From Pseudomonadota bacterium (GTDB lineage: Bacteria; Pseudomonadota; Gammaproteobacteria; Acidiferrobacterales; Acidiferrobacteraceae): 51,987 nt of DNA. The stretch is taken from positions 1 to 51,987 of the forward strand of contig JAKBUS010000010.1 of the NCBI GenBank assembly GCA_021841585.1, written 5' to 3'. Every line of letters starts with the position of its first letter. Positions within the stretch are counted from its first letter, which is position 1. Shown piece by piece: positions 11,001-18,085 of the stretch. Both the position numbers and the translations under genes were made by a program. The notes below the pieces were generated by a model. That model was given only the letters and a program-made list of their open reading frames with translations, was not told where the DNA came from and did no database searches.

Positions 11001-12434
11001 ATGAAACAGACACTCGACCTCAGAATCGGGCAACATCTCACCATCACGCCCCAGCTGCAGCAGGCGATCCGCCTGCTGCAGCTGTCGTCGATTGAGCTCG
11101 AGCAGGAGATACGCGAAGTTCTGGAGAAAAACCCGCTCCTGGAAGAAACCGACCACGCCGACGGCGAAGAGACGGCGGCCGAGGAACCAAACGAGGCGGT
11201 GACCGCCGACGAGGTCCGGGATGATGGCGAGGGCGACGCCGACCCCGCCGAGCTCGACTGGGAGGGCGACTATGAAGTCGCGCCAGCGAGTTCCGGCAGC
11301 GGCGATGAGGACAACGACACCAATTTCGAGGCGCGCAACAGCCGCCCGACGAGCCTCAGGGACCACCTCCTCTGGCAACTGCAGATGACACCCTTCTCGG
11401 ACCGCGATCGGCTCGTGGCCATCGCGATCATCGACGCCATCGACGAAGATGGGTATTTCGTGGGGGGCATCGACGATATCCTGGCGACCCTCCCGGATCT
11501 GGAGCTCACCGCAGACGAGGTCGAGGCGGTCTTGCACCAGGTGCAGAACTTCGACCCGGTCGGGGTCGGGGCACGCCACCTGGGTGAATGCCTGGATCTG
11601 CAGCTCCGCCGCCTGGACCCGGCGACACCTTACCGGGATGCCGCGCGCATACTGGCCGATCCCACCCACCTGAAGCTCCTCGGCCAGCGCGATTTCAAGG
11701 AAATAAAGCGCCTGACACACCTCGACACGGATGCGCTGGGGCCGGCCATGGCTTTATTGAAAGGCCTCAATCCGCGGCCGGGATCACATGTCTCGACGGC
11801 CCCCAATGCCTATGTCGTGCCGGAGATCCTGGTGAAGAAGCGGCGCGGGAGCTGGCGCGCCGACCTCAACATTGCCGCCATGCCGAAGCTACGCATCAAT
11901 AGCCACTACGAACGCATGATACAGCGCGGACGCGGATCCGCGCAGGATCGCTTCCTGCACGACCACCTTCAGGAGGCGCGCTGGTTTTTGAAGAGCCTAC
12001 AAAGCCGCAACGAGACCCTGCTCAAGGTGGCGCGCGTGATCGTCGACCGCCAGCGCGGCTTCTTCGATCACGGGCCCGAGGCCATGCGGCCCCTGGTCTT
12101 GCATGACGTCGCGGGCGAGGTCGGCATGCACGAATCCACGGTCTCGCGGGTCACAACCAATAAATACATGATGACGCCGCGCGGCATATTCGAGCTCAAA
12201 TACTTCTTCTCGAGCCACGTCGGCACTGCCGACGGCGGAACCTGCTCGGCGACCGCCATCCGCTCGCTCATTCGCAAGATCATCGAGGCCGAACCGCCTG
12301 ATAGACCCATAAGTGACAGCAAGATCGCCGACCTGCTCTTGGAGCAGGGTATCAATATTGCCAGGAGGACCATCGCAAAGTACCGGGAATCGCTTAGTAT
12401 CCCACCGTCCAGTCAACGAAAATCGCTCGTTTAA
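11001..12434 (+). CDS. rpoN: RNA polymerase sigma-54 factor
   Basis: The 477-residue protein shows the whole sigma-54 layout. Region I (about 1-50) is Gln/Leu-rich, with QHLTITPQLQQAIRLLQLSS and EIREVLEKNPLLEE. An acidic region II covers about 50-110. The core-binding and helix-turn-helix regions follow, with MHESTVSRVTTNKYM. The RpoN box ARRTIAKYRE sits at residues 454-463, ahead of SIPPSSQRK. It directs transcription from -24/-12 promoters with enhancer-binding activators. Its place between lptB and hpf is conserved in gamma- and betaproteobacteria. Confidence 0.98.
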   Translation: MKQTLDLRIGQHLTITPQLQQAIRLLQLSSIELEQEIREVLEKNPLLEETDHADGEETAAEEPNEAVTADEVRDDGEGDADPAELDWEGDYEVAPASSGSGDEDNDTNFEARNSRPTSLRDHLLWQLQMTPFSDRDRLVAIAIIDAIDEDGYFVGGIDDILATLPDLELTADEVEAVLHQVQNFDPVGVGARHLGECLDLQLRRLDPATPYRDAARILADPTHLKLLGQRDFKEIKRLTHLDTDALGPAMALLKGLNPRPGSHVSTAPNAYVVPEILVKKRRGSWRADLNIAAMPKLRINSHYERMIQRGRGSAQDRFLHDHLQEARWFLKSLQSRNETLLKVARVIVDRQRGFFDHGPEAMRPLVLHDVAGEVGMHESTVSRVTTNKYMMTPRGIFELKYFFSSHVGTADGGTCSATAIRSLIRKIIEAEPPDRPISDSKIADLLLEQGINIARRTIAKYRESLSIPPSSQRKSLV

Positions 12435-12755: not shown

Positions 12756-12832
12756 GCCTGGGCGGCACCCCGTTCATGGATCAGCCATGAGCGCCTCGCC
12801 CATCCGCGCGCGGGGTTATATACTGGTCGCAA

Positions 12833-12861
12833 CGCCAAGCCCCGGTCCCCGGGGCTTGGCG
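12833..12861 (+). repeat. Perfect 13-bp hairpin in the hpf-hprK gap
   Basis: CGCCAAGCCCCGG (12833-12845) and CCGGGGCTTGGCG (12849-12861) are exact reverse complements around a 3-base loop. No T-tract follows, so a classical terminator is unlikely. It may attenuate or protect the transcript between hpf and hprK. A TATACT box (12819-12824) lies just before it and could make this hairpin part of an hprK leader. Confidence 0.6.
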
Positions 12862-12900
12862 CCACGGGGCAGCGGCGGAGCGGATGGACCATAGGGCGCA

Positions 12901-13848
12901 ATGAGCACCATACTGACGGCGCAAAATGTGTACGAGGCCCAGCGCGAGACCTTGAAGCTCGCCTGGCAGGCCGGAAAGGCTGGCGCCAATCGTCTGCTGG
13001 AGCTCGCCACCGCGCGCTTCCCCGGAATGGCGCTCGTAGGCCACCTGAACTTCGTCCACCCCAACCGCGTGCAGGTCATCGGCACCCACGAGACCGCCTA
13101 CCTCTACGAACACATCACCCCGGAGGCGCGTGAGCTGGCGCTAAAGGAGCTCTTCGGGTCACCGTCATCGGCAATCGTGATCATCGCCAATGGCCAGGAC
13201 ATCCCCGATGAGATGCGTAGCGCCGCCGACGCCGCGTCCATGCCGCTTTTCAGCTCCTCGCTGCCAAGCCCGCGCGTCATCCATGACCTCCAGTACTACC
13301 TCGCGCGCGCGCTTGCCGAACGCGAGATCCTGCACGGCGTGTTCATGGAGGTCATGGGTCTCGGGGTATTCCTGACAGGCGAGAGCGGGATCGGGAAAAG
13401 CGAACTTGCGCTTGAGCTTTTGAGCCGCGGCCATCGGCTGATCGCAGACGACGCCTGTGAATTCTTCCGCATCGGGCCCGACGGCCTTCAGGGCCGCTGC
13501 CCGGATATGCTCTGCGACTTCCTGGAGGTCCGCGGGCTTGGCATCTTGAACATCCGTGCCATGTTCGGCGAGACCGCGGTACGCCATGAAAAGACCCTGC
13601 ACCTGATCGTGCGCCTAAAGGATTACGCATCCAACCCGCAATCCGGGATAGACCGGCTGCAGGCCGAGCAGAAAACCCGGGCAATCCTCGGCATCGAGGT
13701 CGCCGAGGTAGCCTTATTCGTGGCCCCCGGCCGCAATCTCGCGGTGCTCGTCGAGGTCGCGACCCGCGGCCACATCCTGCGGCGCCGGGGCATCAACGCC
13801 CTTGAGGATTTCATGCACCGGCAGAGTCTCGCCATGAAGTCCCCATGA
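12901..13848 (+). CDS. hprK: HPr kinase/phosphorylase
   Basis: The 315-residue protein phosphorylates and dephosphorylates Ser46 of HPr according to energy state. Its N-terminal domain is followed by the conserved His145 (LHGVFMEV), Walker A GESGIGKS at 160-167, IADDACEF, and the family signature RGLGILNIRAMFG. The target serine is present in the HPr encoded downstream. hprK and rapZ overlap by 4 bases. In PTS systems without sugar permeases it is thought to couple metabolic state to regulation. Confidence 0.95.
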   Translation: MSTILTAQNVYEAQRETLKLAWQAGKAGANRLLELATARFPGMALVGHLNFVHPNRVQVIGTHETAYLYEHITPEARELALKELFGSPSSAIVIIANGQDIPDEMRSAADAASMPLFSSSLPSPRVIHDLQYYLARALAEREILHGVFMEVMGLGVFLTGESGIGKSELALELLSRGHRLIADDACEFFRIGPDGLQGRCPDMLCDFLEVRGLGILNIRAMFGETAVRHEKTLHLIVRLKDYASNPQSGIDRLQAEQKTRAILGIEVAEVALFVAPGRNLAVLVEVATRGHILRRRGINALEDFMHRQSLAMKSP

Positions 13849-14720
13849 GCTTTATCATCATAAGCGGCCTATCCGGGTCGGGAAAAAGTATCGCACTCCA
13901 GGCGCTGGAGGATGTCGGCTTCTACTGCATCGACAATCTCCCGGCGGCGCTGCTGCCGCATTTCGCCCACCAAATGGCCGACGTGCGCTCCGAGTTCTCC
14001 GACATCGCGGTCGGCATCGATGCCCGCAATCGCCTGTTCCTCGATACCGCGCCCATGAATCTCGAAAAACTCCGCGCGCTCGGCGTCGATTACCGGATCA
14101 TCTTCCTTGAGGCCGACGAGGCGGTGCTCATGAAGCGCTTCAAGGAGACGCGCCGCAGGCACCCGCTGACGGATACCAAGACCCCGCTTCTCGAAAGCAT
14201 ACGGCTGGAGAAGGCGCGGCTCGAACCCTTGTCGCTATCGTGCACGCGGCGCATCGATACCACCCATACGACGGCCCAACAACTTCGCCAGCTCATCTAT
14301 GAGTTCGCGCGCGGCGCGAGCACGCGCGGCATCATGTTGCTGTTCGAGTCCTTTGGGTTCAAGCACGGGACACCACTTGATGCCGACTACGTCTTCGATG
14401 TCCGCTGCCTGCCCAACCCCTATTGGGAACAGGGCCTGCGCGCACTCACCGGGCGGGACCCGGCGGTTGCGGCGTTTCTAGAGAGCCACCCGGAGGTGGC
14501 GGCGATGCAGGAACACATCGCGGACTTTCTGGCGCGGTGGCTGCCGGGCTTCGAACAGGAGAACCGCAGCTACCTTACGGTCGCGATCGGCTGCACCGGC
14601 GGCCAACATAGGTCGGTGTATCTGGCCGAAAGGCTTGCGGCGCACTTTCGCAAACAAGGCATAAATACCCAGATCCGGCACCGGGAACTCACCGAGGGGA
14701 TTGCCTCGGCGGCACCCTGA
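13845..14720 (+). CDS. rapZ: RNase adapter protein RapZ
   Basis: The 291-residue protein has Walker A GLSGSGKS at 7-14, YCIDNLPAALLP, a FGFKHGTPLDADYVFDVR block and the C-terminal GCTGGQHRSVYLAERLA of the RapZ/YvcJ family. In E. coli it binds GlmZ and GlmY small RNAs and presents GlmZ to RNase E, tuning GlcN-6-P synthesis. In this gene order it is normally next to PTS genes. The C-terminal domain is complete. Confidence 0.95.
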   Translation: MSFIIISGLSGSGKSIALQALEDVGFYCIDNLPAALLPHFAHQMADVRSEFSDIAVGIDARNRLFLDTAPMNLEKLRALGVDYRIIFLEADEAVLMKRFKETRRRHPLTDTKTPLLESIRLEKARLEPLSLSCTRRIDTTHTTAQQLRQLIYEFARGASTRGIMLLFESFGFKHGTPLDADYVFDVRCLPNPYWEQGLRALTGRDPAVAAFLESHPEVAAMQEHIADFLARWLPGFEQENRSYLTVAIGCTGGQHRSVYLAERLAAHFRKQGINTQIRHRELTEGIASAAP

Positions 14721-14824: not shown

Positions 14825-15247
14825 ATGATAGGACTTCTGGTTTTGGCACAAAAAGACGTGGCCTTCGGCCTTCTCGAGGCGGTAGACCATGTCCTGGGCC
14901 AGCGGCCACCCGCGCTTGCGGCCTTCCCTGTGCATTACGAGACCCCGCCGGATGAACTGACCGCGGCGCTCTCCAAGGCGATCCGCGCGATCGATCAGGG
15001 CGAAGGGGTCCTGATCCTCGCCGATATCTATGGGGCCACTCACATCAACGTCGCCTGCCGCCTGCTGGCGCGCCATCGGGTGGAGCTGGTCACCGGCCTC
15101 AATCTACCTATGCTGATTCGCGTATTGAACTATCGCGATCTGCCGCTTGACGACCTTATCGGGAAGGCCTTGAGCGGTGGAATGGAGGGGATCGTCTGTG
15201 CCACGGAATTTTGTCTTCTGGATGACGCCAAGCATGAAGTGCATTGA
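14825..15247 (+). CDS. Mannose-family PTS EIIA protein lacking the phospho-acceptor His
   Basis: The 140-residue EIIA-Man domain starts MIGLLVLAQKDVAFGLLEA. In the family the first strand ends in T-H-G or A-H-G with the phosphorylated His at residue 9 or 10. Here residue 9 is Gln (codon CAA) followed by Lys, so the normal acceptor is lost. The second active-site residue is kept: Asp67 in ADIYGAT. A new His73 (GATHIN, usually GATPSN) lies in the same loop. The rest of the fold looks intact and the frame is undisturbed, so this is a real gene under selection, probably a phosphorylation-independent regulator. It overlaps ptsH by 14 bases. No EIIB or EIIC gene is nearby. Confidence 0.88.
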   Translation: MIGLLVLAQKDVAFGLLEAVDHVLGQRPPALAAFPVHYETPPDELTAALSKAIRAIDQGEGVLILADIYGATHINVACRLLARHRVELVTGLNLPMLIRVLNYRDLPLDDLIGKALSGGMEGIVCATEFCLLDDAKHEVH

Positions 15248-15503
15248 GGTCGCCGTTATCAACAAATTAGGCATGCACGCGCGGGCTTCGGCGAAGCTCG
15301 TGAGTCTTGCCTCGTCATTCGAATCCGCGATCACCGTGACCCGCGAAGGACGCAGCGTCAACGGCAAGAGCATCATGGGCATCATGATGCTGGCGGCCGG
15401 CCAGGGAACAACCCTGAAAATTTGCGCCGAAGGACCCGACGAGGGTGAGGCGAGCCAGGCCTTGTGCCGGCTGATCGAACAGCGATTCGGAGAACAGGCC
15501 TGA
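15234..15503 (+). CDS. ptsH: Phosphocarrier protein HPr
   Basis: The 89-residue HPr has His15 (KLGMHARASAKLV), which receives phosphate from EI, and Ser46 (VNGKSIMGIMML), the HprK target, both at canonical positions when translation starts at ATG 15234. An in-frame ATG at 15222 would add four residues that do not match the family. It overlaps the EIIA gene by 14 bases, and its stop shares one base with the ptsI start. Confidence 0.95.
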   Translation: MKCIEVAVINKLGMHARASAKLVSLASSFESAITVTREGRSVNGKSIMGIMMLAAGQGTTLKICAEGPDEGEASQALCRLIEQRFGEQA

Positions 15504-17248
15504 TGCTCGCGCTTCACGGCAAGGGCGTAAGCAGCGGCATCGCCATAGGCCGCGCTTACGTACTGAAGCGCGAACGCTTGAAGATCCCGGAATACGTCAT
15601 ACCGGCGGCGTTCGTGGAAGACGAGGTACAGCGCTTCCTGGAGGCCGTCGAGACCACGCGCCAGGAGCTGAGCGACATCCGCGACCACATCCCTCCGGAC
15701 GCGCCGGTCGAGGCGGCAAGCTTCCTCGACACCCATCTGCTCATCTTGAATGACACCATGGTCTCGGAAGCGCCCATAAAAGACATCCGCGACAATCAGT
15801 GGAATGCCGAGTTCGCGCTAAAGACCCAGAGCGATCGCCTGGTCGCGGTGTTTGAGGGCATGGAAGACCCCTATCTGCGCAACAAGAAGATCGATGTCGC
15901 GCAGGTGGTCGAGCGCGTTCTTCGCAACCTCCTAAACCCGGATGAAGGCGAGGCCGAGCTGATACCGGATGAATTGGCCGGACGCGTCGTGGTCGCCAAC
16001 GACCTCGCTCCGGCCGATGCCGTCACCCTGAAAAACAAGGGCATCGCGGCGTTTGTCACCAACCTCGGCGGACCGATCTCGCACACCGCCATTCTCTCGC
16101 GCAGTCTCGGGATACCGGCCATTGTTGCGGTTCACGGTGCGACCCGCTACATCGACAATAACGACGAACTCATAGTCGACGGCAAGCGCGGAATCCTGTT
16201 CGTGGCCCCAGACCCGATCGTGATCTCCGAATATGAGAAGCGCGCGCGCAAGATCGAGCGGGTGCAACGCGAGCTCAAGGCCTTGCGCACGAGCGAGGCC
16301 ATAAGCCGCGACGGGGTTACCGTGCAGCTGCTCGCCAACATAGAGCTTCCCGAGGACATGGCCGGCGTTCATCAGGCCTTGGCGAGCGGCATCGGGCTTT
16401 ACCGCACCGAATTCTTGTTCATGAACCGCAAGACGCCGCCCGACGAGGAGGAGCAGTTCGCGGCCTACGTCAAGGTGATACGCGAGCTTCCTGGGCGACC
16501 GGTCACCATCCGCACCCTGGATCTGGGGGCGGACAAGCAGGCCGACATCGACCTGCCGACCACTGCCGTCAATCCCGCGCTCGGGTTGCGCGCCGTGCGC
16601 CTGTGCCTGCAGGAGGTTGGGCTTTTCAAGGTCCAGTTACGCGCCATTCTGCGCGCTTCGGCGTTCGGAACGGTGCGCCTTATGATTCCGATGCTCTCCA
16701 ACATCGACGAGATTGCGCGCGTCATCGAGATCGTGCGCGAGGTCCAGGAGGAACTGCTGCGCATCGGCGTCAATTTTGATACCAACATACCGATAGGGGG
16801 CATGATCGAGGTCCCGGCAGCGGCAGTGTCCGCCGACCTGTTTGCCGCCCACCTCGACTTTCTGTCGATCGGCACCAACGACCTCATTCAGTACACGCTT
16901 GCCATTGACCGCGTCGACGACACCGTGAACTACCTCTACGACCCGCTCCACCCCTCGGTGCTGCGGCTTATCGCCATGACCATCGACGCCGCCGACAAGC
17001 AAGGGATACCGGTGGCCATGTGCGGGGAGATGGCCGGCGACACCCGCTATACGCGGCTTTTACTGGGCCTTGGCCTGCGGGAATTCAGCATGCACCCATC
17101 GGCGCTGCTCGAGATCAAAAAGATTGTCCGCGAGAGCGCGATCGCCGACTTGAAACAGCAGTCCGCCCAAGTCATGGCAGCCCGCGATTCGCGTGTCCTG
17201 CAGCTCCTGGTGGACCGCATGAACGGCGACGGCGACATCAGAGAGTAA
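15503..17248 (+). CDS. ptsI: PTS enzyme I (phosphoenolpyruvate-protein phosphotransferase)
   Basis: The 581-residue protein starts MLALHGKGVSSGIAIGRAY. The active His is His194 in LGGPISHTAILSRSLGIPAIV. The C-terminal PEP-binding barrel has FLFMNRKTPPDEEEQ, RTLDLGADK, IGTNDLIQYTLA and the catalytic Cys VAMCGEMAGD. All functional residues are present, so EI should phosphorylate HPr from PEP even though the adjacent EIIA cannot be phosphorylated at its usual site. I start at ATG 15503 (TGATG with ptsH), because residues encoded upstream are not conserved. Confidence 0.96.
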   Translation: MLALHGKGVSSGIAIGRAYVLKRERLKIPEYVIPAAFVEDEVQRFLEAVETTRQELSDIRDHIPPDAPVEAASFLDTHLLILNDTMVSEAPIKDIRDNQWNAEFALKTQSDRLVAVFEGMEDPYLRNKKIDVAQVVERVLRNLLNPDEGEAELIPDELAGRVVVANDLAPADAVTLKNKGIAAFVTNLGGPISHTAILSRSLGIPAIVAVHGATRYIDNNDELIVDGKRGILFVAPDPIVISEYEKRARKIERVQRELKALRTSEAISRDGVTVQLLANIELPEDMAGVHQALASGIGLYRTEFLFMNRKTPPDEEEQFAAYVKVIRELPGRPVTIRTLDLGADKQADIDLPTTAVNPALGLRAVRLCLQEVGLFKVQLRAILRASAFGTVRLMIPMLSNIDEIARVIEIVREVQEELLRIGVNFDTNIPIGGMIEVPAAAVSADLFAAHLDFLSIGTNDLIQYTLAIDRVDDTVNYLYDPLHPSVLRLIAMTIDAADKQGIPVAMCGEMAGDTRYTRLLLGLGLREFSMHPSALLEIKKIVRESAIADLKQQSAQVMAARDSRVLQLLVDRMNGDGDIRE

Positions 17249-17642
17249 CTTGTAAATATGAAACGCTTGCATCCTGCGGGCCCGCGAAACCCGGGCCTTG
17301 ACATGCAGGCAGGGGCGCCGATGCGCCCATCCCGCGTCGGGGCCCGAGGCACGCGGTTCAGTAACGGGTGATCGTGAGTGATACTGGGCCCTTGCCCTCG
17401 GCAACGAGGGCGATCGGCGTAAGCCGGCCGCGGGACCCGATCACCCCACCGAGGAGATCGTCCGTATGTCGCCCCCATGGGTCATATAACGCCCGGCGTA
17501 CAGATTCTTGCCAGCGGGATCCACGGTCATGACCCGGTACGCAGACAAGCCCCGCCGTCCTTGTAGGCCGCCATGGCCTACCAGGGTGGGGAAGGATCCC
17601 ATAGGGACTTCCTCCGGTCGGAGCGCGCCCGCGGGCGTGACA
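17249..17642. other. Intergenic stretch downstream of ptsI
   Basis: Two small hairpins are visible: GGCCCG/CGGGCC (17279-17297) shortly after the ptsI stop, without a T-tract, and GCCCTCG-GCAA-CGAGGGC (17394-17411), a 7-bp stem with a GNRA-type loop. A minus-strand 53-codon frame (17441-17602) has a GGAGG ribosome site before its ATG and a propeller-like phrase DPAGKNLYAG, but it is too short to call a gene. It may be the tail of a decayed beta-propeller gene. Confidence 0.35.
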
Positions 17643-17966
17643 CTAGGAATGAAATGAATCCCGCGGGATGTTCGGCCGGTCCACACCGTCCACGAACACC
17701 AGCCGGCGCTCAAGCGCGGCGGTCCGCAAGCGCAAGGCCTTGGCATACTCGGGCGACGCGTACCATCGGCGTATAGGCTCCATGGAGTCGAACTCGACGA
17801 CCGCGATGCGAAGGGACGCCGCCTCGCCTTCGGCGACCACGGGCTCGGCGCCACGCACGAGCTAACGACCCCCAGGCGCGGCAATGGGTGCCGCCGCGTG
17901 CTCCCGATACTGAGCAGCTGGGTCCTCGTCTAGAAACGCCACCTCAGAGATGACGAACGCCGACAT
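17643..17966 (-). pseudogene. DUF1330 family protein, nonsense-interrupted
   Basis: The frame from ATG 17966 reads MSAFVISEVAFLDEDPAAQY and reaches TAG at codon 35 (17862-17864). It then continues in the same frame as LVRGAEPVVAEGEAASLRI, VVEFDSMEPIRRWYASPEYAKAL and RRLVFVDGV. This is the complete DUF1330 ferredoxin-like domain, about 107 residues. The family normally has G-G-R-Y-L-x-R-G at this point, so the stop replaces a Tyr codon (TAT or TAC to TAG), a single-base change. A GGGGGA ribosome site precedes the start. Function of the family is unknown. Confidence 0.75.
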
Positions 17967-18085
17967 CGATCGTGTCCCCCAGGATTAACTGGTCCACGCG
18001 AGGGGCGCGGCGCCGTCACTTTTCGCCTATGACGACGAAGATTGGCGCGCATCCCGCTGGATAGGACCGCGATGCAGGGTACGCC

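Follow-up and report, generated by a model that had tools for sequence, protein, structure and literature searches.

A mannose-type EIIA homologue whose phospho-acceptor histidine may have moved within the active site

Background

The closest described relatives of the protein studied here are the mannose-type EIIA proteins (EIIA-Man). In solved EIIA-Man, as presented in PMC7587183, the ring of His10 is enclosed by Gly71, Ser72, Pro73 and Phe36, the phosphoryl group is held by Ser72, and Met23 extends into the active site of the neighbouring protomer. Proteins of this type also occur in permease-free relays. The EIIA-Man-like PtsM of Brucella is reported to receive phosphate from NPr and to bind SucA (PMC2937029), the genes for EI, HPr, EIIA-Man, EIIA-Ntr and HprK are described as lying in one cluster in Xanthomonas (PMC6916182), and in alpha-proteobacteria ManX appears to act as a terminal acceptor (PMC13104625). 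The cluster, and the fact that most gamma-proteobacteria have lost it, are treated in an evolutionary study (PMC2405797). We found no report of a displaced EIIA histidine in the open-licence PMC literature.

Here we describe an EIIA-Man homologue in which the canonical histidine is replaced by Gln and a proline of the same active site by His. It is encoded in a stretch of 51,987 nucleotides (contig JAKBUS010000010.1), and by the window we mean this whole stretch of DNA that was analysed. The original prediction, made from the window sequence, offered two readings, namely that the EIIA is fixed in an unphosphorylated-like state or that the phosphate has moved to another residue. The patterns reported below favour the second and disfavour the first, and suggest that the phospho-acceptor moved from residue 9, in strand 1, to residue 73, a reading to which we assign a probability of roughly 0.6.

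Results

The EIIA gene lies in a cluster with the order rpoN-hpf-hprK-rapZ-EIIA-HPr-EI:

11001..12434, forward strand: RpoN (sigma-54), upstream in the cluster; NF004595, 653.2 bits
12456..12755, forward strand: HPF, ribosome hibernation factor; TIGR00741, 105.9 bits
12901..13848, forward strand: HprK; TIGR00679, 321.7 bits; intact Walker A motif GESGIGKS
13845..14720, forward strand: RapZ; NF003828, 356.2 bits; motif GLSGSGKS
14825..15247, forward strand: EIIA-Man homologue of 140 aa; Gln9, Asp67, Thr72, His73, Asn75; PF03610, 53.8 bits (cut-off 21.4)
15234..15503 (if started at this ATG), forward strand: HPr; PF00381, 99.3 bits; His15 and Ser46 intact
15503..17248, forward strand: Enzyme I (EI); TIGR01417, 551.4 bits; GGPISHT with His194

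With the starts used here, HPr overlaps the end of EIIA by 14 bases and EI overlaps the HPr stop. The motifs read in the window agree with the original prediction that HPr, EI and HprK look intact, and the EIIA frame is undisturbed, as it had stated, with an open reading frame over the full length. The same gene order was present in 13 of the 18 longer loci that we inspected; three of the remaining five are truncated where the contig ends (L330, L334, L335), and two have no hprK match (L331 of genome G383 and L343 of genome G055). In the window, ptsN is absent between hpf and hprK (12756-12900). PADLOC returned no match, leaving a defence role unsupported, and a promoter scan found 1 promoter where 1.7 were expected. 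On the reverse strand (17640-17969) lies a DUF1330 gene that an in-frame stop divides; its portion downstream of the stop still matches PF07045 (57.4 bits).

Four codons of the EIIA gene are central to the comparison:

14849..14851, forward strand: codon 9, CAA, Gln; canonical phospho-His position, variable across the window's order
14888..14890, forward strand: codon 22, CAT, His; aligns to Met23 of solved EIIA-Man, a residue that comes from the adjacent protomer
15023..15025, forward strand: codon 67, GAT, Asp; the His-activating Asp
15041..15043, forward strand: codon 73, CAC, His; Pro in relatives, proposed relocated phospho-acceptor

Codon 72 is ACT (Thr). The codons, the translation and an alignment to the Streptococcus pneumoniae EIIA-Man (6fmg) all confirm the residues on which the original prediction was built: Gln9 falls on the histidine of 6fmg, Asp67 is kept, and His73 falls on the proline of a later loop. 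A monomer model of the window EIIA, built with a 43-row alignment, has a pLDDT of 90.4 and a pTM of 0.84, and its best 11 structural matches are all mannose-family EIIA proteins or derived from one by design (Z 15.1-19.4), with solved matches to 1pdo at Z 19.0 and rmsd 1.6 A and to 6fmg at Z 17.9. In this model, residues 72-78 form the helix that follows the Asp67 loop. All 43 members of homologue set A1 match PF03610 (E <= 0.001). The sequence, the fold, Asp67, Ser/Thr72 and Asn75 thus place the protein in PF03610, while the strand-1 phospho-His (E. coli His10) is missing. Because this defining residue is absent despite the homology and the fold, the window protein is a variant EIIA-Man-like PF03610 homologue and not a canonical His10 EIIA-Man.

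Scoring residues 9 and 73 by lineage, as had been proposed, revealed a pattern wider than the one first seen: His73 is near-universal across the window's order, and residue 9 varies. We sampled the order as 57 genomes and found the gene in 52 of them (the misses are G011, G027, G031, G048 and G056). It is present in 13 of 14 genomes of the genus, the source genome included, and in 17 of 18 genomes of the family, and the combination Gln9/His73 occurs in 13/13 and 17/17 of these, respectively. According to the original prediction, close relatives with His9 would have made the change strain-specific or a sequencing error; none was found in the genus or the family, and with Gln9/His73 in every family genome that has the gene, among them the single-contig G004, an error or a strain-specific change is refuted and has practically no probability left.

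Over the 52 genomes of the order, Gln9/His73 is found in 32, Glu9/His73 in seven, Tyr9/His73 in four, His9/His73 in three and Phe9/His73 in two, with one genome each for Asp9, Thr9 and Leu9 together with His73, and one, G052, carrying His9/Pro73. In total, His73 is present in 51/52 and His9 is missing in 48/52; these counts include one fragment with an in-frame stop (L135 of G035), which was excluded from the unique-row counts and trees. The same residue was found in a second order, that of G281, all four genomes of which (f116) carry His73, with residue 9 being His in L145 and L249 and Pro in L143 and L144. Taken over both orders, His9 is missing in 50/56 genomes, Gln being the commonest substitute, and both histidines are present together in five genomes (L024, L031, L123, L145 and L249) that are spread over the two orders. 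Both the window's family and family f5 (7/7) have Gln9 without exception. A subclade of f7 (L019, L020, L025, L027, L029, L030 and L114) has an acidic residue, Glu or Asp, at position 9 and keeps His73.

Outside the two orders, we observed the canonical pair almost without exception. In a class sample of 369 genomes, 217 had a match, 210 of these outside both orders, and His9/Pro73 was found in 104 of the 105 for which residues were read, the exception being Tyr9/Ser73 in G383 (L219). In a phylum sample of 299 genomes, 192 had a match, and all 69 loci read, representing 66 further genomes, have His9/Pro73. Together this gives His9/Pro73 in 170/171 genomes read outside both orders, in samples whose reading was weighted to better-scoring matches and was non-random. 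Over the grand total of 227 genomes (161 + 66), Asp67 is present in 227/227 and a histidine at residue 9 or 73 in 226, so that 50 of the 51 genomes without His9 carry His73. A further 18 named records (13 with His9/Pro73 and five with His73) were kept out of these genome counts, some of them being the same genomes.

To compare the two forms, we collapsed identical rows, leaving 54 unique rows with His73 and 185 others (119 others in an earlier column comparison), with a minimum of 80 aligned residues set for rows in the 54-versus-185 comparison and in the 239-row tree. The non-His73 rows are His9/Pro73 in 184/185 cases. Among 126 columns, residue 73 is the best separator of the two sets (54 versus 119 rows), and because the sets were sorted by residue 73 itself, the weight of the comparison rests on residue 9 and on the tree. 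Residue 9 ranks only 94th of 126 in conservation within the His73 rows versus 7th in the others, and it is occupied by nine different amino acids, His included. The rest of the pocket is retained: Asp67, Gly70, Asn75, Gly91 and Thr/Ser at 72 are invariant in 54/54 His73 rows and Asn93 is found in 52/54, and at some residues near the site the most frequent amino acid differs between the sets: Thr66 becomes Ala, Ser/Gly71 Ala and Ser74 Thr or Ile. His73 itself is encoded by CAC in 36 and by CAT in 19 of 55 genomes; the use of both codons indicates that silent changes occur while the amino acid stays the same. We obtained dN/dS values of 0.01-0.09 against eight relatives (rough for the two with dS > 1.4). 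The EIIA gene is under strong purifying selection, and these values reject a decaying gene.

Another histidine near the site is His22, which aligns to Met23, described as extending into the neighbouring protomer's active site (PMC7587183). His22 of the neighbouring protomer, alone or paired with His73, might therefore be the acceptor in place of His73 alone, and it is indeed His in 51/54 His73 rows. However, His22 also occurs often alongside a retained His9 (72/185 other rows), which led us to reject it as a novelty of the His73 clade, and in three His73 rows (L113, L125, L127) both His9 and His22 are absent, so that His73 is the sole histidine at these three positions. We consider an acceptor role for His22 quite improbable; it may still be a helper.

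The phylogenies bear on the history of the two residues. In a FastTree phylogeny of 239 rows, inferred with columns 9 and 73 masked, the 54 His73 rows form one clade with one change at residue 73, and an IQ-TREE phylogeny of 99 rows, which includes 45 of the 119 non-His73 rows (those most like the window protein), has two changes at residue 73; the trees rest on about 126 columns and many of their forks are unresolved. On the 239-row tree, residue 9 switches between His and another residue five times inside the His73 clade (total branch length 18.0) and once elsewhere (83.2). The five consist of one loss on the branch where residue 73 changes, followed by four regains of His9; when regain is disallowed, the clade requires 13 losses. 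The count is thus 5 or 13 depending on whether His9 can return, and the polarity may run either way. From these trees, change at residue 9 goes with His73, while the sequence of steps and how often His9 was lost depend on the assumption made. In the 99-row tree the f116 rows sit among rows of the window's order, and gene transfer between the two orders is possible.

Three genomes depart from the general pattern. G052 (L330, contig 402) has its His9/Pro73 EIIA within an otherwise typical cluster. For HprK, RapZ, HPr and EI the best scores come from G050, a same-family genome with both histidines, at 71.7-73.9% identity (EI tied with G023). The EIIA is likewise nearest to that of G050, but here the identity is only 52.6%. 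Contamination as an explanation is unsupported, because the cluster proteins and the EIIA all score best against this same-family genome. Either His73 would have reverted to Pro while His9 remained, or the single gene would have been replaced; both routes fit a rule in which one of the two histidines is retained.

In G383 (L331, contig 154) the EIIA has Tyr9, Ala72 and Ser73 and, alone among those read, has no histidine at 9 or 73. In this genome HPr retains His15/Ser46 and EI its histidine, no hprK match lies between hpf and rapZ, and there is a second EIIA match beyond the one read. Phosphorylation of an EIIA therefore does not follow from intact EI and HPr encoded beside it. We considered a relay in disuse for G383, given the missing hprK, and dropped it, as the HPr and EI histidines are intact and the two-histidine G055 likewise has no hprK match. 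The latter genome (L343, contig 1; a single contig, 63% complete) has just the last 62 RapZ residues matched upstream of its EIIA, and no hprK, hpf or rpoN match in the 8 kb read.

For the partners of the EIIA, we find that HPr His15/Ser46 and the active EI histidine are intact in all loci of the two orders in which these proteins were read. The source genome has one PF03610 match and one HPr match, and no match to the EIIA classes PF00359, PF00358 and PF02255, to PF03830 or to PF02378. Mannose-type EIIB (PF03830) has no match in any genome of the order (0/57). A cluster of hprK-rapZ-EIIA-HPr-EI beside rpoN, with no PF03830 in 57 genomes and no PF02378 in the source genome, is the composition of a permease-free regulatory PTS, the absence of EIIB and EIIC being judged on these two families. 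The original prediction had further proposed that the PTS relay reports differently to HprK and RapZ; this is unsupported: Ser46 of HPr, the target of HprK, is intact, and we saw nothing that connects EIIA-Man with RapZ. PtsN (EIIA-Ntr, PF00359) has no match in 18/18 genomes of the family, the source genome included, which leaves no PtsN to act as receiver there. It is matched in 19/57 genomes of the order, where it is a possible alternative receiver, and this counts against a moved acceptor. A link of His73 to the loss of PtsN was rejected for want of a clean pattern, His73 being seen with and without PtsN. As the source genome has no other receiver for EI and HPr among the searched families, phosphorylation of its EIIA is the easier explanation, for which G383 cautions against any claim of proof.

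Discussion

The move of the acceptor to residue 73 is suggested by several lines of evidence. His73 is nearly fixed in the window's order, from which His9 is mostly missing, and is found in all four genomes of f116, whereas 170/171 genomes outside carry His9/Pro73 and the conservation of residue 9 drops in the His73 rows. The five two-histidine genomes are the expected intermediate and form a natural bridge between the two states. The pocket residues Asp67, Thr/Ser72 and Asn75 persist, as do the EI and HPr histidines, and selection on the gene is purifying. In the published EIIA-Man structure, as described, residue 73 lies against the ring of the canonical histidine (PMC7587183), and His73 would thus occupy the place where Pro touched the old ring, from which we infer that it can reach the phosphoryl group. 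What favours the moved phosphate is that 50/51 genomes without His9 have His73, that residue 9 varies across families, and that the relay and pocket residues are maintained.

The main rival, which we regard as unlikely, is that the EIIA is no longer phosphorylated and now serves for docking or as a scaffold, with His73 fixed in the vacated pocket for some other task, for instance the binding of metals, metabolites or partners; a fixed His73 could indeed serve another purpose. The loss of His9 in 50/56 genomes of the two orders, mostly to Gln, is in line with this, as are the eight genomes with Glu or Asp at residue 9, which could mimic the charge, and G383, in which EI and HPr are intact beside an EIIA with neither histidine. 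There is also an analogy in Crh, an HPr-like regulator in which Gln replaces His15. However, a scaffold gives no reason to expect that His73 accompanies the loss of His9 in 50/51 genomes, that five genomes carry both histidines, or that Asp67, Thr/Ser72 and Asn75 persist in 54/54 rows, and it would leave EI and HPr of the source genome without a receiver among the families searched. Other observations count against a moved acceptor: Gln9, constant in the window's family (17/17) and in f5, may have a role of its own, His22 of the neighbouring protomer lies near the site, either polarity is possible, as is transfer with f116, G052 has His9/Pro73, and G383 has neither histidine.

If the acceptor did move to His73, the EIIA would be the end of a transport-free relay in which phosphate passes from PEP to His194 of EI, on to His15 of HPr and then to EIIA. 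HPr would dock as usual, Thr72 would hold the phosphoryl group as in known EIIA-Man, Asp67 would still serve the pocket, and His73, positioned against the place of the old ring, would take the phosphoryl group. The phospho-state would then probably control partner proteins, by analogy with what has been proposed for the EIIA-Man of other permease-free relays. It is also conceivable that His73 takes phosphate from HPr and quickly loses it to water, so that the EIIA resets HPr and stores no signal. The retained HPr-facing residues would suit such a sink, which sequence does not tell from storage; we consider it very improbable.

A likely route for the move to His73 begins with the change of Pro73 to His, which takes one base and yields a two-histidine protein from which His9 could be lost. 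The acceptor would then have moved within the same active site in a single lineage, with His9 lost possibly many times and to eight different residues, and with G052 perhaps reverted. We give this whole sequence of steps slightly better than even odds.

Nearly a whole order thus departs from the canonical phospho-His rule, apparently by supplying a histidine from elsewhere in the pocket. If this is true, it implies that the acceptor of a phosphorelay can relocate with donor and docking unchanged, and the extant proteins would show naturally occurring states from before, during and after the move, of which the living two-histidine forms make each step testable. It also warns that a missing histidine alone is insufficient to call such proteins dead or unphosphorylatable.

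Comparison with known systems

Similar to the EIIA-Man of E. coli and S. pneumoniae (1pdo, 6fmg), the window protein has the same fold, Asp67, Ser/Thr72, Asn75 and the HPr-facing Gly and Asn (Gly91 and Asn93 here), but those proteins have phospho-His10 and Pro73 where the window protein has Gln9 and His73, and no genome of its order has a mannose-type EIIB. Like Brucella PtsM, as that system is described, it is a soluble EIIA whose relay includes HPr/NPr and HprK but no permease; PtsM keeps the conserved histidine, whereas the window protein lacks it and has His73 in place of Pro (PMC2937029). The relay of Xanthomonas, compared at the level of the cluster, is likewise presented as permease-free with a soluble EIIA beside HPr and HprK (PMC6916182). 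Among enzymes of another kind, WNK kinases are described as having a catalytic residue supplied from elsewhere in the same active site. That residue is a kinase lysine and not a phospho-carrying histidine, and in the present family forms with both residues survive. In Crh, as in the window EIIA, a PTS protein has had its phospho-His exchanged for Gln. We know of no compensating histidine in Crh, whereas the EIIA described here has an invariant new histidine in the same pocket.
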